NCBI RefSeq assembly: GCF_028330965.1
Contig: NZ_JAQMUB010000067.1
Location: forward strand, 1 to 64,000
From: Oscillatoria sp. CS-180
GTDB lineage: Bacteria; Cyanobacteriota; Cyanobacteriia; Phormidesmidales; Phormidesmidaceae
Length of the DNA stretch: 64,000 nt
Direction of reading: 5' to 3'
Position numbers and translations under genes: made by a program. Positions 21,358-59,518 of the stretch are shown piece by piece (the stretch's first letter is position 1; each line of letters starts with the position of its first letter). The notes under the pieces were generated by a model. It was given only the letters and a program-made list of their open reading frames with translations. It was not told the DNA's origin and searched no databases.

Positions 21358-23208
21358 TCAGCCTAAATGCTGCTGAAAATATTGCTCATAGAGCTGACAC
21401 CGGGGTAAAACTTCAACGCCGTTGCTGCTGCTGCGCTGGACGAGTCCTGCGCCTCGGAGCCGGAAAAAGACGCGCTCGTCGGCGCAGGTGTGGGTGTGGA
21501 TGACCTGGAGGAAGCCCTGCACCAGTTCGGGTTTGTCGTACATGCGAAAGAGGTGATAGCGCAAATGATCGCCGAAGGGACCGCGCTCTTTGTCGGCCTG
21601 ATCAAACAGGTCGTGGGTGCTCAGGGTTCCGGTGACCACCAGGTAAAGGGCTTTGCGGACTAGGTAGGGATGTCCATTGACAAGATCCATCAGGCGCTGA
21701 AGTTCCGACGCAGTGAGGGGATCGCCGTGGCGCTGGTTGAGGTCAGCCACCTGAGCAAAGTCAAAATCGGTGAGTTCGATGATTTGTCCCACATTAAAGG
21801 GGGACTGGTTGAGGTTGTCGATCAGCTGGTAGGGTTCGGTGGAGGTCACCAGGGCGAGGTCAAGCTGTTTCCAGGCGGGTTTAGTAGCGCGGTTGTTGTG
21901 CCAGCTCCGCAACATGCCAAAGAAATCGGACCGAAACTCCGTGTCAAACATGGTCTCCACTTCGTCCATCGCTAGCACGAGGGGAGCCGCTAGGGTGGGC
22001 AGCAGGTACCTGCCAACGTAGCGAGTGCAGCGCTGGGTGTTGCTGAGACGCCGTTTCCAGTACTCATCCACCTGATCCTCCAAGTCCAGCTCATCCGTGA
22101 GCCAGGCACAGAACTCGGGGAAAAACGTGTCGGGGTCGGTCAGCGAGGCCTGATCAAACAGTTGAAAGTCCAGAAAGGCCACCCGTTTCCCCTGCTCATG
22201 GGCTGTGCTCATCACCTGATTGAGCAAGGAACTCTTGCCCATCTGCCGAGGCCCTTTGATGGTAATGGTGACGCCCTGCTGCTGAATCGTGCTCTGGGCA
22301 ATCTGGTCAAACGATCGCGCCACATAAAACTGAGACTCCGGAGCCATCGTCCCCTCCGGTAGCTCTAGCGGCAGCGCCTGACGCGAGGACCGGGGTTGAG
22401 CCGAGGGGGTCGGGCGCGGCACGGCGACGGGTTTAGGAGCCTGAATAATTTGGGCTTTGTCGGCAGGCGTTGCCAGGGGCAGGGTGCCGCCTGTGAGGGC
22501 CTGCCGAAGCTCCTCTAAAAGACGCGGCGTGTCCGCCGGGGATTCCCAAAAGGCCCACTGAATCGGATCGAGATACACGCTGAGGGGATACTGGAACGGC
22601 TCTCGGTAAGCTAGCCGCACGGGCAGAATTTGGGGATGGCCGTGAGTCCGGGCAAACTCGTGGGCCATCTGCACTTCCCGCTGCACCATCTCGCTGCTCA
22701 CGGCGGGTTCCGACAGCAGCACAATTAGCGCTTCTGCCTGCTGAATTTCGTTGCGAATCTGCTCCACCCAGTTCGCCCCCACCGTCATCTGCTGATCAAT
22801 GAACACGGTGTATTGCTCACCCAACGCCTCACGCAGAGACAGCGCCAGGGGTTCATCTGGTTCCATTTCTCGCTTGTAGCTGATCACAAGACGGCCTAGC
22901 GAAGTCTCTATGCTGCTGACAGGAACCGGATCTTTATCCGATGCTGAAGGACGCGGCAGGTCCGGAACGTAGTCCACTAGCAGCTCATAAACCGCCACCA
23001 AACCACAACCGCCCTGCCCTTCGGCCCAACCTAGCAGCTCCCCCGTGCGCGTTCCCTGTTGTGTTTGAGCGGGAGAGACAATGCCCGCTGGAGGATTCAG
23101 CGCAAAGAGGATTTCGTCAAAATGAGCCGCAGGTAGCCCCTGCAAAGCCCGATAGAGCCGCAGCCGCTCAGCGCGATCGCCCTTGTTGTTTCTGGCTTTT
23201 GCAGGCAT
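21358..23208 (-). CDS. EAD-like / TIR / AAA-like STAND protein
   Basis: 616 residues from the ATG at 23208 (MPAKARNNKGDR); the longer frame upstream lacks coding character. Residues 12-80 (LYRALQGLPAAHFDEILFAL, ...LLGWAEGQGGCGL) look like a cyanobacterial effector-associated adaptor domain. Residues 105-240 are a TIR domain: VISYKREMEPDEPLALSLRE, FIDQQM, and SSEMVQREVQMA, where Glu178 sits where TIR NADases carry their catalytic Glu. A Pro-rich linker leads to an AAA-like NTPase (285-616) with Walker A GPRQMGKSSLL (319-329) and Walker B LVLAMDEVE (410-418). TIR-STAND proteins in bacteria often deplete NAD+ after activation; that activity is inferred here. Same strand as and upstream of the WD40 protein, sharing its NTPase type. 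Confidence 0.85.
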   Translation of the reverse strand: MPAKARNNKGDRAERLRLYRALQGLPAAHFDEILFALNPPAGIVSPAQTQQGTRTGELLGWAEGQGGCGLVAVYELLVDYVPDLPRPSASDKDPVPVSSIETSLGRLVISYKREMEPDEPLALSLREALGEQYTVFIDQQMTVGANWVEQIRNEIQQAEALIVLLSEPAVSSEMVQREVQMAHEFARTHGHPQILPVRLAYREPFQYPLSVYLDPIQWAFWESPADTPRLLEELRQALTGGTLPLATPADKAQIIQAPKPVAVPRPTPSAQPRSSRQALPLELPEGTMAPESQFYVARSFDQIAQSTIQQQGVTITIKGPRQMGKSSLLNQVMSTAHEQGKRVAFLDFQLFDQASLTDPDTFFPEFCAWLTDELDLEDQVDEYWKRRLSNTQRCTRYVGRYLLPTLAAPLVLAMDEVETMFDTEFRSDFFGMLRSWHNNRATKPAWKQLDLALVTSTEPYQLIDNLNQSPFNVGQIIELTDFDFAQVADLNQRHGDPLTASELQRLMDLVNGHPYLVRKALYLVVTGTLSTHDLFDQADKERGPFGDHLRYHLFRMYDKPELVQGFLQVIHTHTCADERVFFRLRGAGLVQRSSSNGVEVLPRCQLYEQYFQQHLG

Positions 23209-23479
23209 GGATAATGGAGGCCCATGAAGGCAGGACGCTTTTCTCCGTCCATCATAGGTGAAGTTACGGAGACGGTCAGCCGCATAACGCGATGGAGATA
23301 TTAAAAAAATGTGCCATTGAGGTCGCAGTCCCTCAATGTCTGATCCCTTAGGCAACAGTCGGTCTAAGCGTCAGTTGACAAGGCTTCTGACTGCTGTTTG
23401 CAATGGAATACAAGGCAATTGCTCGGCTTCGTTAAAGCGGGGACTGGAGGAAAATATTGATTGATGACGCCTTAGAGGA

Positions 23480-38910: not shown

Positions 38911-39153
38911 CCAATGTGCAACCTGCATACTGAGCGTGTTTAGCGCACACTACAATTGCATTTTCCAATGACAGGGGTTGGGCTCATTCCCGAGCAGGAA
39001 GAGGCGTTTAGTTTGTTGAGGCGTGATCACGAGCGGATCTAATCTACCCTGTTTAGTATCTCTAAAAGCAGCTGGGGTTGTGTTACTACCTGCCTAACCC
39101 AAATTTTTAAGGCATCGATGCTCACAATATTTCGTTGCCTCTAGGTGATTTTG

Positions 39154-42100
39154 ATGAGGTTCGGTTTTAATAGAGCAGAATCCCAGGATCTGAATGCGAT
39201 GAGTTCTGAATCACCAAATCCTATCTCAGGCGAGACAGTTAAACAAACTACTGAGGCAGTTGCCAACTTTATCCGCTGGATAGCAGAGCTGATCCGCCAG
39301 CGCAACTTGTTCATGCTGCTAGTGCTTACAGGAGTCGTGTTGAGCTTAGCGGGACTATTCTTTCGTGAAACTTTAAGCCACTGGCTTCCAGAAGAACAAC
39401 AAGATTCAATTTGGGCAAGTGTAAGTCTTATTGCCATCCTGATGTTCACTGGAGCATTGATTGTGGCAGTTGTAACGATGCCACGACGTATTCGACATAA
39501 TACTGTTGAAGTAGTAGAGCGTAAAGCAATTAAAGGCTTACGACCTTTTAATGAGGAAGACGCTGAGATTTTCAGGCGATTACAGCGCAATCATGCTCTG
39601 AGAGAGTGTCTGGAAGCAATCACTAGCCCTCATTTCCGGATTGGCGTTTTAATAGGTGAGTCCGGTTCCGGTAAGACTTCGTTTCTGCAAGCTGGACTTC
39701 TACCTCAATTAAATCAAGTTTCGAAAAGTTATCGAGGAATCTATGTTCGCTTTTCCGATCAAGAACCGATTGAAACTATCAGACGTTCTATCTCAGAACA
39801 GCTAGAGATTCCAATGGATTGGCTAGTCTCAATGTCTTCAGGTTCTCGCGAGATTTTAACGATCCTACAGCAAGCAACAGAGGCAACTGAAATGCCTGTT
39901 CTGCTGATTTTTGATCAATTTGAGCAATTCTTTGCACATTTTCCCCGAAAGCCTGATCGAGCTGAGTTTATTCAGGCTTTGGCAGCCTGGTATCAGTATC
40001 CCAAATCCCTCGCCGTCAAAATTTTGGTGAGCATTCGCTCTGATTTGTACTACCAACTTTACGAAGTACAGGAGGCATTAGGTTACTCTTTGGGGCCACA
40101 GGACATAGTGCATCTTGAGAAGTTCGAACCTGAAGCAGCCGTTCACATACTAGAAGTTATCGCAGAAACGGAAAATCTCCGCTTTGATCGTCGCTTTGTA
40201 GTTGATTTAGCAACTGAAGAATTAGTAAATTCAGAAGGTGGTCTAATCTCTCCAGTTGATTTGCAAATCCTAGCTTGGATGATTGAGCGTCAGAAGACTT
40301 CTGAGATGAGAGCATTTAATCGAGAAGCGTTTCAAAAATTTGGAGGAGTCGAAGGACTCTTAACTCGCTATTTAGATCGTACTCTGGCGACATTAGCATT
40401 GCCTGCCAAACGTCAGGCAGTTGTAAAAGTTTTACTTCAGCTAACCGATTTAGAGCGTCAAGTTCGAGCGGAGGTTCAAACTCTGCCTGATTTACAAAGG
40501 CAACTCCAAGGTGATGTAAAGGCTCAAGATGTTGAGGATGCTGTCCACTGGCTTGTTCTCAGCAGTGTGAGATTGATTACTCCTGTTGAGCGTCAGCAAC
40601 AGTATGGATATGAACTTGCTCATGAGAGGCTTATACCCGCTCTTATGAGGCAGATAGGACAAGAACTTACCTCAGCAGACAAAGCAAGGAGACTTTTAGA
40701 TCGTAGGGTTAATGAATGGCTTGGCAGTAATTGTTCCTCTAGATATCTATTAAATTGGTCAGAACTGCGCTTGCTTGCTAGGAATCGTTCTTATGTCATT
40801 TTTGGAGCAAAGCGCTTACAGAAGGAGAAACTAATACGCTTGAGTCGCCAAAGACTTCGTCGATTTGGAATTTTTATAACTACTTCATTCGTAGCGCTAC
40901 TGTTGGCATTGAACTGGCTTCTATTTGTTCCCCAGGGCCAAATTCAAGTTGTACGTTGGGTTTTATCCTTAGCATTGACTCAGGCATCGGATGAATATAT
41001 TGCAAACATCGGTTTGGCAATTGGAAAAGACGGTAACTGGTCAAGAGCTTTGAGGGTAGCTGATCAAAATATTCGTAGTGAGGCGGTCAAAGCTGATTTC
41101 CTCAAAGAAGTTAGTCTTATTGCCCCAAGGTTAGAAACAAGCCAGTCTCAACTAGTCTTACAAAGAATACTTCACTATGCAGAGGCAATTACAGAAAGCA
41201 AATCAAAAGCCATTACATTAAGCAATATTGCCAACATAGCAGGGCAACTAGAAGATAGGGAAATAGCTCAGCAGGCTCTCTCGAAGGCTATAGCGGTCAC
41301 TGAGTCAATTGAAGAGAATGTGCAAAAGGCTAATACTTTAGGTAATGTCGCTAGCATAGCGGGGCAACTAGAAGATAGGGAAATAGCTCAACAGGCTCTC
41401 TTGAAGGCTATGGCGGTCACTGAGTCAATTGAAGAGAATGTGCAAAAGGCTAATACTTTAGGTAATGTCGCCAGCACAGCGGGGCAACTAGAAGACAAAG
41501 AAATAGCTCAGCAAGCTCTTTCACAAGCAATAGATACTATTGAATCTATCAACGAAGACGAAGCCAACACGGAGGAAGCTTGGCGAACATCGTATGCTTT
41601 GAATTCAATCACAGATACGGCTGCACTAATAAAAGATGTAGAAGTACTTCAAAATGTTCTCTTAAAAACTTTATCAGCTACTACTCATATCACTGATGAG
41701 CGGGAAAAATCCTATGCTTTAAGTCGTATCGCATATGTAGCTGGCCGGGTAGAAAATGTGGAAGTAGCTGAGCAAATTCTTGAGCAAACACTTTTCATTG
41801 CCGAATCCATGTCTAGTAATAAGCAAAAAGCTTATGCAGCTGAGGACATTGTGGACGCTATTGGTAGGCTAGGACATTCTTCAGAGAATACAAAAAGGCT
41901 ATTGAATTACTCGCTAGAGTTAGTTCGAGAACATAATCTCTATTACATTATTAGGGAGGTTGCCATTGGATTTGCTCGATTAGATTACTGGCAAAGTACC
42001 ATGAGAACATTAATAACAGGACCGACTTGGTTTGACTATGACGATGTTCTAGTATTGTGGGCAGAAAAGAAAAATCCAAATTTGATTCCTGGGGCAGTAG

Positions 42101-42528
42101 TTCTAGACGCAGTCGTTTCCAAGCTCGATTCAAATCAATACAGATTGAATTTAACAGTTAAAAGTCCCGACGTTGGCTGTGAACAGCGTACAGATTGGGT
42201 GGAACTCATAACGCCTCAAGGCAATTTACTTCATCGGCAGTTAATCTCTGAAATCAACGATTATGAGAAACCATTTGAAGTAAACAGTAATCTTCCTGTT
42301 AACCTTGCACCAGACCAATCTATTTATATCCGCGCTCACCTTCACCTTGATTCCCGATCTAACGGCTCGCAAACTTTTGTTCCACAAATCGAACAACTAT
42401 CACCTTATGCAGACCACGCGATGTTTGGTAGCCCAGACGAAGGCTTTCATGCTGTGCGAATATATCCAGAGTTTGCTATGAGTGTTGCTGACCAAGAACC
42501 TCAACCTACAGCTTGTCAAAGACAGTAG
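39154..42528 (+). CDS. Membrane nSTAND NTPase with helical repeats and a C-terminal beta domain
   Basis: About 1124 residues. The ATG at 39154 has AGGTGA just upstream; an ATG at 39199 is also possible. Two N-terminal TM helices (about 54-73 and 88-110) lead to a novel STAND (nSTAND1-type) NTPase introduced by KGLRPFNEEDAEIFRRLQR, with Walker A GESGSGKTSF (about 168-177) and Walker B PVLLIFDQFEQFF (about 248-260). A third TM helix (about 570-590) precedes helical repeats of 40 residues (about 670-930; units IAGQLEDREIAQQALSKA) and a C-terminal beta-sandwich-like part (about 975-1115). The DNA is AT-richer than its flanks and lies in an accessory region, suggesting acquisition. Role unknown; related NTPases serve in immune signalling. 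Confidence 0.83.
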   Translation: MRFGFNRAESQDLNAMSSESPNPISGETVKQTTEAVANFIRWIAELIRQRNLFMLLVLTGVVLSLAGLFFRETLSHWLPEEQQDSIWASVSLIAILMFTGALIVAVVTMPRRIRHNTVEVVERKAIKGLRPFNEEDAEIFRRLQRNHALRECLEAITSPHFRIGVLIGESGSGKTSFLQAGLLPQLNQVSKSYRGIYVRFSDQEPIETIRRSISEQLEIPMDWLVSMSSGSREILTILQQATEATEMPVLLIFDQFEQFFAHFPRKPDRAEFIQALAAWYQYPKSLAVKILVSIRSDLYYQLYEVQEALGYSLGPQDIVHLEKFEPEAAVHILEVIAETENLRFDRRFVVDLATEELVNSEGGLISPVDLQILAWMIERQKTSEMRAFNREAFQKFGGVEGLLTRYLDRTLATLALPAKRQAVVKVLLQLTDLERQVRAEVQTLPDLQRQLQGDVKAQDVEDAVHWLVLSSVRLITPVERQQQYGYELAHERLIPALMRQIGQELTSADKARRLLDRRVNEWLGSNCSSRYLLNWSELRLLARNRSYVIFGAKRLQKEKLIRLSRQRLRRFGIFITTSFVALLLALNWLLFVPQGQIQVVRWVLSLALTQASDEYIANIGLAIGKDGNWSRALRVADQNIRSEAVKADFLKEVSLIAPRLETSQSQLVLQRILHYAEAITESKSKAITLSNIANIAGQLEDREIAQQALSKAIAVTESIEENVQKANTLGNVASIAGQLEDREIAQQALLKAMAVTESIEENVQKANTLGNVASTAGQLEDKEIAQQALSQAIDTIESINEDEANTEEAWRTSYALNSITDTAALIKDVEVLQNVLLKTLSATTHITDEREKSYALSRIAYVAGRVENVEVAEQILEQTLFIAESMSSNKQKAYAAEDIVDAIGRLGHSSENTKRLLNYSLELVREHNLYYIIREVAIGFARLDYWQSTMRTLITGPTWFDYDDVLVLWAEKKNPNLIPGAVVLDAVVSKLDSNQYRLNLTVKSPDVGCEQRTDWVELITPQGNLLHRQLISEINDYEKPFEVNSNLPVNLAPDQSIYIRAHLHLDSRSNGSQTFVPQIEQLSPYADHAMFGSPDEGFHAVRIYPEFAMSVADQEPQPTACQRQ
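41221..41510 (+). repeat. 120-bp in-frame direct repeats
   Basis: Within the nSTAND gene, 41221-41340 and 41341-41460 are nearly identical 120-base units and a third diverging unit starts at 41461. They encode the 40-residue helical repeats. High identity means a recent duplication. Confidence 0.85.
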
Positions 42529-47466: not shown

Positions 47467-50400
47467 CTAGAGATTGGCTAGCCATTTTTCAGCACGAGCA
47501 TAGTTGTCTTTCTTAACCTGCTTGATGGCCTGTTCGAAGTTTAGAGTGACACCCCAGACATCCGTAGAGAAGCGCTTTTCTTGCTTCATGCGATCAAAGA
47601 ATTCAACCGCCTCAACGTGGGAGAGTCCGCCTTCAGTTTTGGCAATCTGCATAAATACATCAAACACGTTATCTGCCATGCGGGCATCGCCGCAAACGTA
47701 GTAGTGACATTGTGGATGGCTGAGCTGCTGCCAGAGGACTGCTGCCTGCTGCTGCATTAGGGTCTGCACATACACCTTTTGCTCGGTCAGACGTGAGAAA
47801 GCCACCTGCAGATTACTGAGTACGCCTTGTTCTAGCCAAGACTTGAGCTGCGCTTCGTAGAGGAAGTCGCTGTGGTTGCGGCAGCCAAAGTAAAGTGTGG
47901 CGTCACCCAGCTGGACACCCATGTTTTGCAAATGCTCCCGGTGCTGAAGAAAGGCGAGCAAGGGAGAGATGCCCGTGCCCGGACCAACCATTAGCAACGG
48001 TGCTGTGGGGTCAGTTGGGGGACGAAAGTCAGAGGTGCGGGTATCAAGGCAAACGCGATCGCCCGCTGTCAGCCCTGCCAAATAGTTAGAACACAACCCC
48101 TGCCGAGTTTTACCAGTATCAGTTTTGATTTGGAGCACCCCGACAGTAATTTGAATTTTGCCGGGGTGCAGTTGCGGGCAGGAAGAAATGGAATAGAGAC
48201 GGGGCTTGAGCCGGGGCAATAATTCCAGCAGCATTTCTAGAGTGATTTGGGCTGAGGGAAACTCCTCGAAGAGATCGACGATGGTCATGAAGCAGTCCTG
48301 GAGCTTTTTGCGAAGGGCAACGTTTTCGGCGCGATCGCTCTCCAGCGCAAGAATTTCCAACCAGGTCGCCAGACGCACTTTGTCTGCGGTACTGGTTGCC
48401 GCTCCATGCAGAGCCGTCAGCAAGTCACGGAAGGGGTCATGCAGCGCTAAATCAATAACTTCAGTTAGCACCTGACGCACCGTTGTCGGTCCCGCGACGG
48501 GAGGTTCGTCTTCCAGTTCTGTGCCGTCTGGCATCACATACCGAGCAGTAAAAACTGCTTCCGGGTCAACGCCAAGACGACGACATAGCCGCACTACTAG
48601 ATCTGCTGGATTGTTAGGATGCACAGCTACATGGTCGCCAGTCTCGTACTGCAGCTCAGCATTGGCAATGTCGAACATCAGACAACGGGTAGAGCGACTG
48701 CCCGGAATGACTTCTTTGAGCAGTTCACGATTGGAGAGGAGGGGAACGGCAATAGGACGATGGGAGTTTGGGGCACTAGGGGGCTGAGCGTCCAGATACG
48801 TAACGGTAAGCTTTGGAAGAGATTGGGGACTAGCGCTAGTATCATCGGCTCCCAAAACGCGGGAGACCAAGCCTGACCACTGCTTGAAGGTATCGGCTTG
48901 ACCTTTGATCTCGTCGCCTTTGTGCAGCGGAACAATGGGATTCGCTCCAGCTTTGGCTAGGGCTTTGTCTAGGGCAACGCCTGCGGCGCAGAAGTGTTCG
49001 TAAATCGTACTGCCAATGCCGAGAACAGAATAGTTGAGTCCTTGTAAGGCACCCCGTGGCTGCTGTTTCAGCCATTGCATAAATGACTTAGCGTTGCCGG
49101 GCATATCCCCATTTCCAAAGGTCGAGGTGACGACTAGCAACAGCTTTTCTGAAGCCAAATGAGCAGTGTTGTATTCATCTAAGCCCATGACTTTAGGGCG
49201 ATAGGCCACGAATTGGCGGGCAGCACGGCGAGCAAACCCTTCGGCGGTTCCCGTTTCAGAGCCGTAGAGAATCAGAATGCGATCGCTGCGGTCCTCATTC
49301 TCATCCGCCGCCTGAATAAACTGCTCTAAGTCGAGGTCAGCTTCTACGGCCCAGCGATCAGCAGCGTGGTGATAGGCTGGCTCCAGATAAAAATCACGCA
49401 TTTGGTGATGCCAAACCGGACAGGCACTGCCGCCTGCCGGGGGCATGACCCAGCCATAATCAGCGGGGCACTCGCGCCCAGACTTCTTCTCTCGCAAGTC
49501 GTGGGTAAGAAACTGCTGCGCGGCGGACTGGTGATCGACCATCGTCACCTTCGCTTTCTGGAACGAGTGAATCACCGCTACGTTCATTTCTAAGGCGACG
49601 CGATCGCGCCACAAGGTTGCTTCAGTGCTGGTGTCCAAGCCCAGCAGCTTGGCAACGTCTTCCATTTTGTCGTAGCGCCACTCCTCCAGAAAATCACGGG
49701 CAATTTCGGTGCCCATGTACCAGCCATTGAAAGGAATGCAGGCATAGGTGATGCCGCCAATGTCCATGCGGAAGTTGCTGATAGCGGGAACAGCATACCA
49801 GCGTAGACCCAAGTCCTTAAAGCCAGCTAAGGTAGGGTGCTCGATTTCGACTTCTAGAATGTCCTCTTTTTGAAACTCGTAGAGCTTTGGTTCTTTTCCG
49901 GGCACCTCAATCACCAAGGGCAGAATGTCGTACGGGGTGCGAGGTTCCGGCGGCTGCCAGCCCATTTTTTCAGTGATTGCTTGGGTCACTCCCAAGTTGG
50001 CGGCGTCCCCTAGAATGCTGCCGTCGGGCATTTCGTAGGCGGCATAACGAATCAGCTGCGGATTCCAGATGCGGGGTCCCCAGCGTTCTTGAGGCAGTTT
50101 GGGTCGAAAGGCGGTCATGGTGATCTGGATGTTGCCGCCGTTAGTAGCCAGTCGTAAGTGTTCTTCCAATTCCCGGAACATATCGTCAGGGTCAGTGATA
50201 TGCCGACAGTCGCGCACCACTAAGTTCTGCCACTGGATCCGCCCTACGCATTTGGAAGCGTTGCGCCAGGAGACCTGTGCTCCATAGGCCAGTTCCTCGT
50301 AGGTGTGAGTGTAGGTGCCCGTGGCCTGCACTTCCGCTTGAATGTCCTGCCAGCGCTGTTCTCGATCAGACTCTTCCCAAGCTTGCTCATCAGAGATCGT

Positions 50401-51858
50401 GGTTAAGAATTCTTTGGCCTTCTTCAGCAGCCGTTCTTCATTCAGCTTGGGTAGCTTAATTACATTGCTGACTCGGTCGATCAGCGTTCGCCATGCCTGC
50501 CGCAGATCATCGTCAAAGTCAGGCACATACTTTTCAAACAGGATCAGCATCACGTCAGAGATAGCACCGTAAGCAAAGGACGGCACGCCCGCGTTCCCGT
50601 GGATACGCCCCAGATGCCGTAGCTCGATGAGTAGGCGCTCAGCATCCCCTTCAGACAGACAGATAAAGAGAAATTCTAGGGACTGTAGTAGATGGGTCGA
50701 TAGGTAATTCATATCGGCCCGACCAAAGATGGGCAACACCTGAGGATACTTTGCAAAAAGCGTTTGATAGAACTCTATCCCCATCTCATTCTTGCGATCG
50801 CCAATGTACTGCCAGGACGCCGCCATACGCTGAACGATGTCTGGAGAAAGGGCGGCATCGTAGCGATCGCGCGCCGCCACCATACCTGTGATCACATGGG
50901 TATTGAAAAACTTGTAGAGAGCCGATCCCTCCCCCTTGGCGAGATTATCGCGATCGTAGTCCTCCAGATAGGGGATCTGGGGTAGCATCCACATCCACAC
51001 CTGCCGCGCCTTCAGCCAGTGGCGCGGCTTCAGGCCAATGTCCGCAAAGAGGTTGCCATAGTCTTCCACCGTATCGAAGCTGTCCCCTTTTTCAATAGGC
51101 ACTCCCATCATCGGCTCCCACACAACAGCTTCGGTGTGTGGACAGAGCTGCCGCACACAGCAGTCAAACAGCTCAAAAAAGTAGTCTGGTATGGTATTGA
51201 GCGCCTCACCAAGCAGAGATTCTAGCTCGGGGACCTCCAACAGAAGACGTTTGAAGAACGTCTCCATCTGCAGTTCTTTCCAAGCTCGCAGTTTGTTCCA
51301 CACGTCCTTGACAATGACGGCTTCTGGCATAGAAAGAGGAATCGCTTCGGGCAGTTTCACCGGAACATCGTCTTCAACACTGAGTGGGGGGCGCTTACGG
51401 TTCGTCTGCGTGGTCGCCAAACTCAAAGAAACCGCTTCGTTTTGAATAGCGGAACTGCTTTGGGTCAGGCGAGCCTTCAGCTTTAGATTCGGGGCTATTG
51501 CCCAGGTGGTGATAGGGCATTCAACATCAATACTGCGCTCATCCCTAAACAGTCCGGCGGTGGAAAATTCAACAGTGTCAGCCTCTTGCCAAGGTTCCCC
51601 AAGTCCTCCCTGGCGATAAAGTAGCGTTAGCGCAATGGTGCAGTCCCCAGAATGTTTGATATCTACTAACCAGTTGGGCTGCAGCCGGGTCATGAGGTTC
51701 TTGTCTAGCCTCAGCCTGCCTTCACCATAGATGGTTACTCGGCACTTGTACTTGAATTCGCCAGTTTCAGGGACATCAATTGCGCTCACCTCGACGATAC
51801 GAACAACGGAATCGGAGGTTGGTTGCGCGTTCGAGCGGCTAGATTCTGATAAGACCAT
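47467..51858 (-). CDS. nos: Nitric oxide synthase with tandem globin-like N-terminal region and fused reductase
   Basis: 1463 residues. Residues 1-150 are beta-rich, of unknown fold. Residues 180-335 look globin-like but diverged; 338-470 are a clearer globin (LRHLGRIHG, proximal His near 420). The NOS oxygenase (about 500-830) has the heme Cys motif [14 protein letters not shown] (Cys537), [16 protein letters not shown] with the arginine-binding Glu718, VTMVDHQSA, and VMPPAGG...CPVWHHQM of the pterin/dimer region. The short acidic linker (832-860) has no basic calmodulin-type helix. The FMN domain starts [12 protein letters not shown] (about 863), without an autoinhibitory insert; FAD (RLYSISSC, about 1220) and NADPH ([11 protein letters not shown], about 1290) domains follow. 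NOS makes NO and citrulline from arginine. Length and order match the known globin-NOS of Synechococcus PCC 7335; the globin may turn NO into nitrate. Confidence 0.95.
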
Positions 51859-52060: not shown

Positions 52061-53668
52061 TTAGTCAGAAGTAGCGTCGTCAATTGCGATACTGCCCTCG
52101 TTTAGGGCAGACATTAACGGCAGGACGACATGGAAGGTGCTGCCGCCGCCGACTACACTTTCGGCCCAAATTTGTCCTTGGTGCTGCTGGACGATCTGAC
52201 GGCAAATCGCTAGCCCTAGCCCCGTTCCGCCTTTTGCCCGAGCATCTGACGTATCGACTTGTTGGAAGCGCTCAAAGATCAGAGTTAGTTTTTCTGCTGG
52301 AATGCCGCGACCCTGATCTCGAACCGTGATGTGCAGAGTAGAAGAGGGGTCGGTCGATCGGTGAAGCTGGGGGTTTGGGATTTGGGGTTGACCTTCTACG
52401 GTCTGATGGTCCTCAACGTTTTCCAGCTGTGCACTCATGTAGACTGTGCCTCCAGCAGATGAGAACTTGATAGCGTTGCTGAGGAGGTTGGTGAGTAGTT
52501 GCTGAATGCGATCGCCATCCACCCACAACTGGACATCGGCAGGCTCAACAATAAGCGTCACTTGGGCTGCTTGAGCCATGGTTTGCATGACGGTTTTGGC
52601 CTGTTGAAATAAATAGGGCAGGTCACAGAGCTTAGGCTGGAGGGTAAGGGTACCGGACTTCATCCGCTCCAGATCGAGGATGTCGTTGACCAAACGGACC
52701 AGGCGTTCAGCATTGTTGATAGCCATGTCGATCATCTGCTGCCCCTGAGCAGTGAGGCTGCCGAGTTGCCCAGTACCAAGCAGATCCAAAGCACCAATCA
52801 TGGAGTTCATGGGGGTTTTGAGTTCATGGCTAACGAGGGAAATGAACTCATTTTCAAGGCGCTTGCGTTCGGTAATGTCGTTGGCGATCGCTAAGGCACA
52901 TCGATAGCCCTGTAGCTCGATTTCCTCAACCGAAAGAAGAACCGTTCGCACATGGCCCGATTTAGTCCGCAGATCAAATTCCCAGTTGTGAAGTGCGCCT
53001 GACTGTTCTAGCCGCTCCCGCCTCTCGCGATAGCGATTCATATCCAGTCCGAGATTGAGTTCGTCCACTCGAAACCCAATGACTTCACCCCGACTGTAAC
53101 CGCTAAGTTTCAGAAAGCTGGGGTTGACTTCTAGGAATCGCCCACCCTCTAAGGTCGTGATGGTGATGGGACTAGGGCTAGACCGAAAGGCCTTGCTGAA
53201 GGTTTCTTGAGCTTGTCGGCGATCGCGAATTTCCTGCTCTAGGCGCACGTTTTGGGCCTGAAGTTGACGGCGCAAGCGGCAGATTTGCAGATGCGTTTCA
53301 ATGCGGGCAATAACCTCCTCCACCTGAAACGGTTTAGTGACAAAGTCAACCCCGCCGACTTTAAAGGCTCGGACTTTATCGAGCGTTTCACCTAGAGCGC
53401 TAATGAAAATGACGGGGATGTCACGGGTGATGTCTTCAGCCTTGAGTCGTTCGCAGACTTCGTACCCCCCCATTTCGGGCATGTTGATGTCTAACAAAAT
53501 TAGGTCCGGCGGTGCCGCCTGGGCAGCCCGCAGCGCAGTCTTTCCTTTAGTGACACTGCGGACCTTGTAGTGCCGATCCGTTAGCAGCTGAGACAGGAGC
53601 TGCAAATTCTCTGGCGTATCGTCGATCGCCAGAATATCCGCTTGGTAAGTTCGTGGCCTGTCCATCAT
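52061..53668 (-). CDS. REC-PAS sensor histidine kinase
   Basis: 535 residues. An N-terminal receiver (about 10-125: DILAIDDTPENLQLLSQLL, LILLDINMPEMGGYEVCERL with acceptor Asp, VTKPFQ with Lys), a short coiled coil, a PAS domain (about 160-275), HisKA (EFISLVSHELKTPMNSMIG) and HATPase (LLTNLLSNAIKFS, VRDQGRGI, GTGLGLAICRQIV). The receiver is nearly identical to that of the adjacent cyclase gene, which shows duplication. Its start overlaps the cyclase stop by four bases (ATGA). Third gene of a three-gene operon. Its stop is 202 bases from the NOS start on the same strand. Confidence 0.93.
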   Translation of the reverse strand: MMDRPRTYQADILAIDDTPENLQLLSQLLTDRHYKVRSVTKGKTALRAAQAAPPDLILLDINMPEMGGYEVCERLKAEDITRDIPVIFISALGETLDKVRAFKVGGVDFVTKPFQVEEVIARIETHLQICRLRRQLQAQNVRLEQEIRDRRQAQETFSKAFRSSPSPITITTLEGGRFLEVNPSFLKLSGYSRGEVIGFRVDELNLGLDMNRYRERRERLEQSGALHNWEFDLRTKSGHVRTVLLSVEEIELQGYRCALAIANDITERKRLENEFISLVSHELKTPMNSMIGALDLLGTGQLGSLTAQGQQMIDMAINNAERLVRLVNDILDLERMKSGTLTLQPKLCDLPYLFQQAKTVMQTMAQAAQVTLIVEPADVQLWVDGDRIQQLLTNLLSNAIKFSSAGGTVYMSAQLENVEDHQTVEGQPQIPNPQLHRSTDPSSTLHITVRDQGRGIPAEKLTLIFERFQQVDTSDARAKGGTGLGLAICRQIVQQHQGQIWAESVVGGGSTFHVVLPLMSALNEGSIAIDDATSD

Positions 53669-54783
53669 AATTGTAGGCGTCCCTCTAGCCAGTAGGTTCG
53701 CATTTCCGTTCGACCTTTGATGCGAATGGGTCCCCGGGGTGTGAAGCGGTAGCGATCATGCAGGTGTTGATGCAGCGCTTCAGTGACCTGAATCCGCCCG
53801 GGTTCGCCCTGAGATTCCATGCGGCTGGCGAGGTTTACTGCATCACCCCATAGATCGTAGGAGAATTTTTTAATTCCAATGACCCCCGCCACAACGGGCC
53901 CAGTATCGACACCGATGCGGAGACTGAAAGGACTGCCGTCGTCGCGATGATAGCGGCGAATTGTCTGCTGCATATCCAGAGCCATGTCAGCAACAGCCGC
54001 TACGGGATCTGTCATCGGATTAGGCAAACCGCCCACAACCATGTAGGCATCACCAATGGTTTTAATCTTTTCCAGCTGATGTTTCTCAACTAGCTGGTCA
54101 AATTCAGAAAAGATCAGATTTAACAGATCGACCAGCTTGGTAGGGGGAATCGCCGCAGACAGTCCCGTAAAATCGACAATATCCGCAAACAAGATGGTGG
54201 CTGCCTCAAATCGATAGGCGATCGCCCGATGGTTTTGCTTAAGCTGCTCTGCAATCGGCTGGGGTAGGATGTTGAGCAACAGCTTTTCCGATTTTTCTCG
54301 TTCCTGCTCTAATGCCTGCTCAGCCTTGAGGCGATCGCGAATCTCTTGCTGAAGCTGTTCATTTTGAGTTTGTAACTGTTGCCGCAGAGCACGTAGCTGT
54401 AAGTGCGTTTTAATTCGAGCGAGAACCTCTTCGACTTGAAAAGGCTTGGTCACAAAGTCCACTCCGCCGACTTCAAAAGCCTTGATCTTGTCAACCGTTT
54501 CACCTGATGCACTGATAAAGATGACCGGAATTTCGCGCGTGCGCTCATCTGCTCTCAGCCTTTCGCAGACCTCGTATCCCCCCATTTCTGGCATGTTGAT
54601 ATCCAGCAAAATCAGGTCGGGGGGTGCTGCTTGAGCCGCTCGAATGGCCGTTGTTCCCTTAGTGACACTACGGACTTTGTAGTGACGATCCGTCAGTAAC
54701 TGAGAAAGTAGTTGCAGGTTTTCGGGTGTATCGTCAATCGCCAAGATATCGGCCCGATAGGGTCTAGCTGCTGAATCAGTCAC
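53665..54783 (-). CDS. REC-fused class III adenylate cyclase
   Basis: 372 residues. Receiver (about 10-125) with the Asp motif LILLDINMPEMGG, a signalling helix (LEQEREKSEKLLLNILPQPIAEQL) common before cyclases, and a class III catalytic domain (about 190-370): metal Asp in LFADIVDFTGLS and in DTGPVVAG; the substrate-specifying Lys in KIKTIGDAYM and Asp in YDLWGDAVNLA favour ATP over GTP; the transition-state Arg is in ASRMESQGEP. It makes cAMP when phosphorylated, by inference from the domain plan. GTG start overlapping the upstream kinase gene by eight bases. Confidence 0.93.
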   Translation of the reverse strand: MTDSAARPYRADILAIDDTPENLQLLSQLLTDRHYKVRSVTKGTTAIRAAQAAPPDLILLDINMPEMGGYEVCERLRADERTREIPVIFISASGETVDKIKAFEVGGVDFVTKPFQVEEVLARIKTHLQLRALRQQLQTQNEQLQQEIRDRLKAEQALEQEREKSEKLLLNILPQPIAEQLKQNHRAIAYRFEAATILFADIVDFTGLSAAIPPTKLVDLLNLIFSEFDQLVEKHQLEKIKTIGDAYMVVGGLPNPMTDPVAAVADMALDMQQTIRRYHRDDGSPFSLRIGVDTGPVVAGVIGIKKFSYDLWGDAVNLASRMESQGEPGRIQVTEALHQHLHDRYRFTPRGPIRIKGRTEMRTYWLEGRLQL

Positions 54784-57700
54784 CGCAGGAAGTCTCCGTC
54801 AGGTTAATTAGGGTATCAAAGTCAAGCTGCGTAATCAGACGGTTAAGCTGCTGCTTGAGCATGTCTTGGTTCTCTGGTAGCTGGGCTAAGAGCGATCGCA
54901 GCCAGTCAGCATCCGCCTGAATTGCTCCCTGATGAAAGGTCCGTTTCCAATCATCCGGCAGATCTTGAAGGTCATCTACTGCAAGCAAACGACTGTCCAC
55001 CGGTGCTGGTGAATCATGGTCTTGAACAGGAGCCGTCACCTCGAACTGCACACCCAGATGGTCTGCCATTTTACGAAAAATCTCAGCTGCATAGAACGGC
55101 TTGTGTACAAAATCGTCACATCCGGCAGCCAGTATGTTCTGGTGCTGATCCTCGAAGGCACTGGCCGTGAGGGCGATGATTTTGGTAGAGGAGAGTGAGG
55201 GAGTAGGGGAATGGGAGAATGGGGTTTGCGTTTCGGCCCCCTCCTGTCTCCTAACTGCTGACGTCTGGCTTGGGTCGGCTTCTAATGCGCGAATTCTGCG
55301 CGTTGCTTCGTAGCCGTCCATAACGGGCATTCGCATGTCCATCCAGATCAGATGGGGTTGCCAGGTTTGCCATTGGGTTAAGGCATCCTGTCCATTGATG
55401 GCGGCGTGGGTTTCGAAGCCGACGGATTGGAGCAGTTGAATCAGGGGGGCGCGATTTTCAGGGCGATCATCAACAACGAGAACACGATATTGAGGCTGGT
55501 CAGGAGCTAGGCGCTGGATTGTTTGATGGGCTGAGAAGAAGCTGCTTTCTGAGGGATTAGTGATTTGGACGTCTAGGGCAAAGGTAAACGTTGTGCCCTC
55601 GCCAACGGCAGTAAGGACGTCGATGTTGCCACCCATGAGCTGAACAAACTGATGGGTAATGGCAAGCCCCAAACCACTGCCGCCTTCACCCGGAACATGA
55701 TGGAGAGCCTGCACGAAGGGCTGGAAGAGGAACGGCACCATGTCGTCAGGGATACCGGGACCCGTATCGGCGATCGCGAATCTAATTTTTGTCGCGGCAG
55801 CGAAGTGAGCTGCTGCATCCACGGCTGGAGAATCCAGGTCTACCGAGAGACTGACTTGTCCTGTTTGAGTAAATTTAATCGCATTTCCAAGCAGGTTGAT
55901 GAGGACCTGCCGCAGCTTGCCTTCATCGCACGCGATGTAGTGAGGGACGTTGTCAGCAATTTCAAAGGACAGCGCTAGCCCTTTGCTAACAGCTTGAATC
56001 TGAAACATGCTCTGCAGGGTATTCAACAGATCATGGAAGTCAAAGGGTTTATTGTTCAGCGTAATGGAACCAGCTTCAATCTTGGACATCTCCAAAACAT
56101 CGTTAATTAAGTCCAAAAGATGTTTGCCGCTGGTGTTGATAACGTTCAGAGCCTGCTGCTGCTGTGCCGAGAGTCCATCGTCTCGGACCATAAGCTGAGT
56201 GAACCCCAAAATGGCATTCATTGGGGTTCGTAACTCATGGCTCATGTTGGCCAAAAACTGACTCTTGGCCCGGTTAGCCGTTTCTGCCGCTTCTTTTGCC
56301 TGGTAAAGCTCGGTGGCGGTGCGCTGCCGCTCGATCGCGATGCCTGCCAAATGAGCAGCCGTGCCAAAAATCTGCCAGTCTTCAGTAGAGGGAGATTTAG
56401 CGCGATCAAAGGTCATAGCAAATGTCCCCAACACAGCGCCCTGAGAGGCCAAAATGGGCGTTGACCAGCAGCTACGAATATTGCATTCTTGAGCAATTTG
56501 CCGAATATTAGCCCAAAGCGGATCGGTCAGCGTGTCAGTCACAATGACGGGAACCTTGTGATAGGCCGCAGCGCCACAGCTAGCCGAAAAAGGCCCAATT
56601 TCGAGACCGTTCAAGGCCCGCGTGTAGCTTTCTGGCAGGCTCGGCGCAATAGCGTTGTACAGCCGTTGTTCGGTTTCGTCCAGAAACAAGATGGAGGCTC
56701 CGCTACAGTGCGCCAATTGTTCGAAGGTGCTGATTAGCAAAGTTAGTGTTTCGTCGAGGGGGCCATCGGCGGCAATTAATTCCAAAATTTGGGTTTGGCT
56801 GCTCAACAACCGTTCGGCTCTTTTGCGGTCTGTAAAATCTTCTCCAATTCCCAACAGATGAGTGATGTTACCTTGTCCGTCTCGCAAAGGCATTTTGATA
56901 CTGCGAATGAAGAGGTGCTCACCTGTGGTAGGCCGAAAGAGTTCTCTGGAGGTTTCAATCAGCTGCCCCTGCTGAACAACGTCCAAATCATCTTGACGAT
57001 GGATATCGGCGATCTCAGGAGGGAGCAAGTCATAGTCGTTTCTTCCCAATCCGGCAGCAGGTGAGAAGCCCATGATGCGCTCAGCGTTTTTATTGATTAA
57101 CTCGTAGCGGAAGTCGTTTTGAACGTTCTTACTAAAAACAGTCAGGGGCAAATTATCAATAAACGTGTGAAGGAACTGTTGAGATTGCAGCAGGTTTTTC
57201 TCAAGCTGGCGGCGCTTGGTAACATCCACGCCTACCGAAAGAACGCCGACGGTTTCTCCGGCTTCATCCAAAATAGGCTTATTGGACCAGTTGATCCAAA
57301 CCCGGCGACCGTCTTTGCAGCGACCCTCGTTTTCATTAAAGAGGTAGTTTTCGGGATGGACGAAGAGATTCGCTAGAAAAACTCTCAGATCTCGTCCTGT
57401 TGTTTCAATCGACGGAATAAACGTTTCAGTAACGTGGCAGCCCATCATTTCTTCTAAGGAGTAGCCGAAGAACTGCTGGCCATAATCGTTCATGAACAGA
57501 ACGTTGCCTTCCACATCGGACTTAACGATGATTGAATTAGCCGTTTCAACCAACAAACGATAGTCTTTTTCTCGCTGTCGTAAGGCTTCTTCTGTCTGCC
57601 TGCGTTCACTGACATCCGTCATGACAAACTCAATGCAGCTTTCGTTTTCATTGATTTGTAGTGAAAGCCAAACCCAGATGCGATGCCCGTCTCGGTGATA

Positions 57701-59245
57701 AAGCTCTAGCTCAAAGTTGTGTACGCCATCGCGATCGCGCAGCTGATTCACAACGCGACTGCGATCGCTCAAGTCCACGTAGAACGAGAGACTGGATACT
57801 CGGTTAATGAGTTCGTTGGGGGAGTCGTAGCCCATGATGTCAGCAAACCGCTGATTGGCTTCAAGAATGAGGCCGTCAGCAATGCGAGAACGCCCCATAC
57901 CGGCTTGAGAGTTCTCGAAAATGGTGCGATACTTCGCTTCTCGTTGTCGTAGGGCTAACTCGGTCTGCTGTCGTTCCAATTCAGCACTGATCCGAGCGGC
58001 AAAAATGTGGAGAAAGAGTTCGCGATCAGAATCAAATTTCAATTCATCTCGATTCAGGATGGCGATTAGGCCGATCACTTCGTTGGTGGAACTCGTGAGC
58101 GGAACGCCTAAGTAGCAATCTAGCTGTTCGATCGCTAATGAGGAATCTCCAGGAAAGGGCTCAGTTAAATTCTCTGCAAAAAACATCGCGTTTTCGACAA
58201 CGACCCGCTCGCAGGGTGTGTCTGTCAGGTCGTACTCAAAATTGTCGCGAATCTGCCCGTCCACATAAAACGAGAGCGTGCTAACCCGACGGTTCTGAGG
58301 CGATTTTAATTTGCCAATAAGAACCCCATCTACTTTCAGAAGCGTTGCAATGTGGCCAATACAGGACCGAAAAAATTCTTCTCCAGTGTAGGACGCTGTC
58401 CCGGCCACTAGCTCTTGCAGTGCTCGTTCGCGCTGTTTGCGGTCGTCGATCGCGTGGGTCACGACGACAATGACGGGATCCCCACTGCTATCGTGCGATC
58501 GCGCCAGGCTTGCACTTTGCCAGACCCAGCGGCCATCTTTGTGACGAGAGCGAAATTCAATCTCATCGTGCTGGCGTCCACTGGTTAACACCTGATAGAA
58601 AATGGCATCGCACAGCAGCAGATCATCGGGATGGACAAAGGCAGCATAGGGGCGATTTTGGGTTTCGTGGGGCGGAAATCCGATCAGGTTATTGAGGTTA
58701 GGCGAGGCATAGCGGATGTCACCCATTGGACCAATTAAAAGGATGGCATGATTGGCCTGTTCTACAATGCGGCGAAACTTTTCCTCACTTTGGCGCAGCG
58801 CTGCTTCGGCACGATGCCGTTCGGTGATGTCGCGATAGCTCCACACGCGGCCTATGATTGCACCATTCAGCCTTTGCGGTTGGGAATAGCGCTCAAAGAT
58901 GCGGCCATCTTGCAGCGCAATCTGGTCAGACACGATCGCGTCGGGGGTGCGATCAAACAGCTCCAAAACACGGGCTTCAAATCCCTGGGGATCCGTTGTC
59001 TGATTCGCTAGATACCGAAATCGTGTGAGGGGTTCCGCATCCGGTGCTACCATTTCAGGCGACAGATTCCACATGTGTAGAAATTTTTGGTTATACCCTA
59101 AGACCTGACCGTCGCGATTCACCACAAAGAGACCATCAGCAGTGGACTCAAAGGTAGCTTGAAGCAGTGATAAGGCCGCTTCGCGATCGCAGGAAAATAG
59201 CCGATGAGACTCACAATCACCGCTGTATTCTTCCTGCTGACTCAT
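54776..59245 (-). CDS. Multi-PAS/GAF hybrid histidine kinase
   Basis: 1489 residues from the ATG at 59245 ([22 protein letters not shown] upstream); a longer TTG-started form is possible. Order: PAS (about 30-145), PAS (150-270), GAF (275-435), PAS (440-555), PAS (560-680), PAS (690-820), GAF (830-985), HisKA ([23 protein letters not shown], about 1010), HATPase ([32 protein letters not shown]), REC ([28 protein letters not shown], about 1275-1400). The REC holds a 30-residue low-complexity insertion (about 1345-1372). The final 80 residues are helical. No membrane segments, so a cytosolic multi-signal sensor. First gene of the operon with the cyclase and REC-PAS kinase. Confidence 0.93.
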   Translation of the reverse strand: [1489 protein letters not shown]

Positions 59246-59518
59246 TGCTGTCGCGTTCCTTTCGACCCGATGGTTTACAAATGGCTCAACCGTATCGGTC
59301 AATCGAGAAGATCTGGGGAAGGGATAAGAACCGATGGTTAGAGTCGGAGCGAGGTCACCTGACTCCGACTAATATGTTTTATGAGAACTGCTGATGCAGC
59401 ACTGTCTCTTAACTGTCTGAAAGCGGCGATCGCACCGTATTACAGTTAAGACCTATCTGAGCAAAGGTCATCGAGACAGTGGCGATGATCATTTTTTGTC
59501 AAAGGGTATCAAGCAACT

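Follow-up and report, generated by a model that had tools for sequence, protein, structure and literature searches.

Which kind of nitric oxide synthase (NOS) does a cyanobacterium carry when globin-like domains stand in front of the catalytic chain, and how would such an enzyme be controlled? Both questions are raised by one gene in a 64,000-nucleotide stretch of Oscillatoria sp. CS-180 (contig NZ_JAQMUB010000067.1, positions 1 to 64,000; the window in what follows). The gene lies at 47467..51858 on the minus strand, starts with ATG and encodes 1463 amino acids. An original prediction, made from the letters alone, had described it as a complete animal-type NOS behind two globin-like domains; the open reading frame of 1463 codons proved to be real, and its strand, which the prediction left unstated, is the minus strand. 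Judging from sequence similarity and by analogy, the gene is very probably an ortholog of the gene for syNOS of Synechococcus sp. PCC 7335, a member of the same family as the host, and would thus specify a Ca2+-controlled enzyme making nitric oxide (NO) and nitrate as syNOS does.

Domain make-up and relation to syNOS

Five Pfam models matched the window protein above their curated cut-offs: Globin (residues 362-467, 2.1e-07), NO_synthase (474-836, 1.6e-150, 501.5 bits), Flavodoxin_1 (863-994, 3.7e-31), FAD_binding_1 (1032-1259, 2.1e-43) and NAD_binding_1 (1290-1398, 1.7e-14). The last four stand in the order of a complete NOS with oxygenase and reductase, as predicted, and with 501.5 bits a chance match to NO_synthase is excluded; the host genome holds one NO_synthase match, the window gene. 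On the minus strand the oxygenase domain (PF02898) occupies 49351..50439, the FMN flavodoxin domain (PF00258) 48877..49272 and the FAD/NADPH reductase (FNR; PF00667 and PF00175, residues 1032-1398) 47665..48765. The reading frame is intact, and the protein has the heme cysteine Cys537, the motif GWYMGTE at 712-718, whose Glu718 we take to be the NOS substrate glutamate, and the globin residues Phe378 (CD1) and His420 (F8).

A sequence search of the PDB placed the five cryo-EM entries of syNOS on top (2562 bits, residues 6-1463 against 5-1468), and the next different protein was full-length nNOS with 596 bits. These entries are 9Q05, 9Q06, 9Q0X, 9Q0Y and 9Q15, in which residues 1-134 form a Ca2+-responsive C2 domain, 179-339 a heme-free pseudoglobin (pGlb) and 340-473 a heme globin (Glb) with NO dioxygenase activity, followed by oxygenase, flavodoxin, FNR and a two-helix tail (PMC12922734). 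The globin-NOS fusion is already characterised biochemically and structurally in syNOS, and arginine as sole nitrogen source is reported to support growth of E. coli when syNOS is present (PMC6104048). The syNOS gene itself is locus L054 in genome G134, from the family of the window's host; it encodes 1468 amino acids, the same length as 9q05, and was identical to that entry in all of the approximately 950 of 1468 columns checked. The comparison with the Synechococcus PCC 7335 protein that the original prediction had proposed gave 73.2% identity over 1461 aligned residues, colinear end to end (residues 6-1463 against 9q05), and the two proteins formed one clade with SH-aLRT support of 100 both in a tree of residues 469-1435 and in a tree of residues 14-411. 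The C-terminal tail (CTT, residues 1435-1463; 47470..47556, minus strand) aligned to syNOS 1440-1468.

Pfam detects only the second of the two globins, and the N-terminal region was therefore also compared at the level of structure. An AlphaFold2 model of residues 1-475 (24 sequences, mean pLDDT 76.8) folded into eight strands within 17-135 followed by two domains built of helices, and both Foldseek and VIA-align put syNOS chains first (E 5.5e-43). The two globins together aligned to the syNOS cryo-EM chain in 281 residues over 178-475 (root-mean-square deviation (rmsd) 2.0, Z 32.6), and the second alone to Hell's Gate globin I (3s1i_A; Z 18.2, rmsd 2.0, 130 residues aligned). Over 1-475 as a whole the domains are placed differently from those of syNOS, which raises the rmsd to 12.5-13.2. 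By homology to the syNOS chain, with the model aligned to 9q05 from residue 15, the N-terminus is a predicted C2 domain (residues ~1-134; 51457..51858, minus strand; fold named in PMC12922734) and the first globin (~179-335) is, as modelled, a globin-like helical domain. This pseudoglobin sits between C2 and Glb (residues ~177-335; 50854..51330, minus strand), aligns to 9q0y_B, is 84.0% identical to syNOS over 179-334 and is not expected to bind heme. The heme globin (Glb, NO dioxygenase in syNOS) spans residues ~338-468 (50455..50847, minus strand). Both globin folds had been anticipated, as had the diverged state of the first, which is heme-free in syNOS (PMC12922734). Residues 1-150 had been thought to lack a recognisable fold; homology to the syNOS C2 domain rules this out, and both puzzles are already solved in print (PMC12922734).

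Most of the residues named for syNOS are kept in the window protein. These include K36, K38 and R82 of the C2 basic patch, R58 and R108 together with their C2-oxygenase pairs R58/E521 and R108/E566, the oxygenase residues Q492, E521, E566, N573, C537 and W713, the globin residues F378, H420 and R380, T951, D982 and K985 of the flavodoxin, and W1435, N1452, Y1453 and R1455 of the tail. Residue counts across the family refer to an alignment of 29 members, made up of 26 full-length single-frame loci (L032 starts late, at about residue 42) together with the window gene, L054 and L057. The loci came from one scan of named genomes, which yielded 32 loci from 31 genomes (one genome has both L022 and L033) with best-segment identities of 57-69%; left out were the incomplete L022 and L033, which lie close to contig ends, L026 and L029 with one in-frame stop each, and L027 and L031 with frame breaks. 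The oxygenase heme thiolate ligand Cys537 (50248..50250, minus strand; syNOS Cys539) is Cys in 29/29 members.

Several observations weigh against carrying the syNOS mechanism over unchanged. The published tail lock Lys987/Glu1454 corresponds to Lys985/Lys1449 in the window protein, and this contact therefore cannot match that of syNOS; the position is Gln in 27 of the 29 members, Lys in the window and Glu in syNOS alone. In the FNR helix described as the acidic counterpart of C2, the window protein has Ala1164 at the place of syNOS Glu1169, where the other 28 of 29 have Glu. Identity between the two C2 domains is 47.9% (residues 14-134), and the Ca2+ affinity of the window C2 may therefore differ from that of syNOS. 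Moreover, the structural aligner barely probed the C2 part.

By analogy with syNOS, the window enzyme would most likely be dimeric. Electrons from NADPH would travel through FAD and FMN to the heme in the oxygenase of the other subunit, and arginine would be oxidised to NO and citrulline. In the absence of Ca2+ the N-terminal C2 domain would cover the oxygenase face at which FMN docks; when Ca2+ is present it would move to the heme globin and NO synthesis would be freed. In another state, without the C2 shift, the FNR could reduce the heme globin, which would convert NO to nitrate, and the pseudoglobin would serve as a structural bridge at the oxygenase dimer. The movement of C2, the reduction of the globin by the FNR and the role of the pseudoglobin belong to the model derived from syNOS (PMC12922734). 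All activities and movements of the window enzyme are those we infer from syNOS, on the strength of the domains, their order, most residues and the homology seen here. The physiological role is most likely the Ca2+-controlled conversion of arginine nitrogen to NO and nitrate. With three PTPS matches, the host genome would allow a pterin cofactor, though PTPS is not specific for tetrahydrobiopterin (BH4).

The globin and the C2 loop among relatives

Fusions of globin and NOS had been taken to occur in very few cyanobacteria, which is outdated given relatives in 31 genomes; yet a NOS match of any kind was found in 18/388 sampled genomes of the class, and NOS is still uncommon. Eight of these 18 are of the globin type, the window's own included (those of G293, G059 and G212 are broken), and two are of a type with EF-hands and BFD (G336, G277). 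Five have short oxygenase-only frames (that of G127 reaches the contig end, and the Pfam scan covered that of G007 alone), one has a broken oxygenase-only frame (G342), and the remaining two (G366, G099) were too short or too weak to be assigned a type.

In five relatives (L021:9947-14602, L025:9947-14602, L022:103-3867, L012:2803-7440 and L028:5462-10165) the globin carries an EF-hand pair, with EF-hand_7 E values of 3e-12 to 1e-10 in all five scanned. In the four of them that are in the alignment the pair replaces the heme-binding F helix and there is no His at F8, whereas the other 25/25 rows have it; the proximal globin heme ligand (His420 in the window, 50599..50601, minus strand; His422 in syNOS) is thus His in 25/29 members. 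L022, outside the alignment, shares 95% identity with L021 across the globin of 203 residues. Among 29 genomes from the genus of L021, four gave a full-length match to this globin, all four with the insert, and 13 more genomes matched the EF-hand stretch only, in other frames. The model of the L021 EF-hand globin (18 sequences, mean pLDDT 51.4) was too poor to use.

The tree of residues 469-1435 put the EF-hand members in two places (two changes), separated by a fork with support of 93 on one side and 99 on the other; the tree of residues 14-411, which was built without L022, put them in one place (one change). L012 shares 92% identity with L002 across the pseudoglobin and 88-98% across the oxygenase; over residues 335-412, however, the identity to L002 drops to 55%, against 83% to L021. 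A swap of the whole globin was not supported: L012 is closer to L021 over 335-426, yet its residues 427-468 resemble L002 (69.0%) more than L021 (59.5%). The stretch at ~335-426 is read as one that may have recombined between NOS genes.

These results suggest that the globin could be an exchangeable control cassette, a reading which in our judgement stands evenly balanced. In L021, L022, L025, L012 and L028 an NO-burning globin would have been turned into a heme-free Ca2+ sensor, a built-in prokaryotic counterpart of calmodulin control, by an EF-hand pair taking the place of the F helix and its proximal His, and the stretch would have recombined between NOS genes; the window enzyme and syNOS would represent the heme-globin state with an acid-poor C2 loop, so that the syNOS mechanism may not be the family norm. 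Heme loss and Ca2+ binding of the EF-hand globin are predictions. If the reading holds, nature provides NOS versions with either NO burning or EF-hand Ca2+ control at the same place of the chain, and the evolution of Ca2+ control of NOS becomes directly testable. The EF-hand pair in a NOS globin looks new: among the openly licensed PMC papers searched, the sole report of an EF-hand NOS that we found was PMC7400543, which concerns a different, reverse-order type, and a report elsewhere is possible. EF-hands are not mentioned in the main text of PMC12922734 or PMC6104048.

A second family contrast concerns the C2 loop, where window positions 85 and 92 are Asp in 27/29 members and Gly and Glu only in the window protein and syNOS. 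The syNOS C2 domain lacks the usual Ca2+ Asp residues (PMC12922734), and the Asp residues at 85 and 92 of the other members may be Ca2+ ligands. The contrast in the C2-loop Asp and in the tail-lock residue looks new. The acid-poor loop (2/29 members) and Lys1449 against Glu1454 offer testable contrasts on the generality of the published Ca2+ switch, and the window gene, 73% identical to syNOS, is a second example beside it for testing which parts of that switch are general.

Some further features of these relatives were observed. In the pseudoglobin His280 is invariant (29/29 members), and a CxxxxC motif lies at residues 234-239 (within 50854-51330, minus strand); syNOS has the same motif, and the other 16 rows compared have Gln or a different residue in place of the second Cys. 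Much stronger conservation of the pseudoglobin than of the heme globin, as 56/156 against 25/134 invariant columns in the 29 members would have it, was rejected, the latter figure being lowered by the four EF-hand rows; without these rows (25 members) the counts are 58 and 43, a mild difference only. In Plectonema radiosum, L012:8292-10658, which follows the EF-type NOS at a distance of about 850 bases, encodes a protein that combines several EF-hands with an Erv1/Alr domain, and frames of 797-813 amino acids with EF-hand matches occur in many of the L021-genus genomes searched. A carbonic anhydrase domain, LCIB_C_CA (PF18599), is associated with NOS at L017:9953-15151, L018:4088-9310 and L062:10201-12216. 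It is fused in frame to NOS in Planktothrix paucivesiculata PCC 9631 and UBA8803, a broken copy with part of the domain is found in G212, and the NOS of Planktothrix PCC 11201 (L011) is without it; no report of NOS with an LCIB carbonic anhydrase in cyanobacteria was found among the openly licensed PMC papers searched. In Chroococcus sp. FPU101 (L026:9947-14377) a single in-frame stop separates the oxygenase from the flavodoxin (query residues 838 and 842), which could reflect a broken gene, a sequencing error or a split enzyme.

Neighbouring genes and alternative readings

Upstream of the NOS gene and on the same strand lie genes for a response regulator-PAS-kinase (52061-53668), a response regulator-guanylate cyclase (53665-54783) and a hybrid PAS/GAF kinase (54776-59302), the nearest of them 202 bases away. 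Together with NOS they could form a signalling module in which NO controls cGMP as in animals; the shared strand, the short gap and the cyclase frame, whose guanylate cyclase domain is accompanied by a weak HNOBA match slightly below the cut-off (21.4 of 23.4 bits), would fit this. However, the same three genes adjoin in genome G325 of the same genus, where neither their 19.9 kb stretch, in a search that detects the window NOS, nor the genome gave a NOS match, and no H-NOX match was found in the host genome. Nor did any cluster of neighbouring proteins from at least three of 36 loci contain a window gene or a neighbour of syNOS. An operon or NO-cGMP link is thus not supported, and we consider such a module highly improbable. 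A conserved neighbourhood was likewise rejected: among the 36 loci, several of which have short flanks, no neighbour cluster extended over more than five. Those of four and five loci are from Nostoc and Fortiea, and two clusters of three loci span genera (L005/L010/L013 and L009/L011/L017) at varying distances. Two promoters and six terminators were found, against 3.2 and 5.0 in shuffled sequences.

Two other readings concern the enzyme itself and its history. The globin-reductase half could have the main role, in NO removal or redox chemistry, with NO synthesis minor, given that a Glb with CD1 Phe and F8 His plus an FNR resembles flavohaemoglobin (PMC12922734) and that the oxygenase has Ile693, a residue which PMC6104048 links with slower release of NO. 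We find this improbable, as no other long domain is as constrained as the oxygenase (175/379 columns invariant in 29 members) and five relatives retain NOS although their globin has lost the heme-binding F helix. That the gene was acquired recently and has little settled role in the host is somewhat less improbable but still unlikely. NOS occurs in 1/6 genomes of the genus and 2/63 of the family (the window's genome and G134), a pattern that repeated loss would also yield; the gene's GC content of 53.6% is close to the 51.8% of the window and its GC at third codon positions (0.593) to that of the neighbouring kinase gene (0.578), its frame is intact, and G134, the only other NOS genome of the family, carries the nearest relative in the tree.

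Elsewhere in the window, a TIR and AAA_35 protein is encoded at 21358-23355 (minus strand) and an nSTAND1-TPR protein of low GC (42.5%) at 39145-42528 (plus strand), both of kinds often met in defence.

Comparison with known systems

The animal enzymes nNOS, eNOS and iNOS share with the window NOS the order oxygenase, flavodoxin, FNR and tail, and match it at 1e-100 to 1e-105 in the oxygenase and at 1.4e-177 for full-length nNOS. To this extent the label 'animal-type' stands. It fails in the linker, where animal NOS has a calmodulin-binding segment of ~30 residues and the window protein ~10 residues (848-857), like syNOS L2; the calmodulin-binding linker is absent by length in the window alignment, no dedicated motif search having been made. 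It fails also in the CxxxxC zinc motif before the oxygenase, as the window protein has no Cys in 460-536 before the heme Cys537 and CxxxxC occurs in it at 234 and 1384 only; the pseudoglobin occupies the place where animal NOS binds zinc, and no zinc site is reported there (PMC12922734). In the heme pocket, animal NOS has Val (eNOS Val338) and the window NOS the bacterial Ile, Ile693; the syNOS residue is given as Ile695 in a figure legend and Ile698 in the text of PMC6104048. The C2 domain and globins are additions relative to animal NOS.

Flavohaemoglobin (Hmp) likewise combines globin and FNR and is in principle able to oxidise NO, but in the window NOS the oxygenase and flavodoxin separate the two, and the NCBIfam flavohemoprotein model matched the reductase part only (34.5 bits against a cut-off of 432). 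The reverse-order EF-hand NOS of Microcoleus and Sorangium also unites NOS oxygenase, reductase and a Ca2+ module in one chain, but its EF-hands, BFD [2Fe-2S] and FAD/NAD domains precede the oxygenase (PMC7400543), which is not so in the window NOS. The loci L055:7097-10759 and L056:6892-10539, with EF-hands, Fer2_BFD and FAD and NAD domains followed by the oxygenase, resemble that type as far as it is described there. With syNOS the window NOS has in common the same six domains in the same order and the catalytic and most regulatory residues; it differs in length (1463 against 1468 amino acids), in Lys1449 and Ala1164 for syNOS Glu1454 and Glu1169, and in Asp28 of C2, which is Gly in syNOS. 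The window gene is thus not new in itself; it is an ordinary syNOS ortholog with informative differences.

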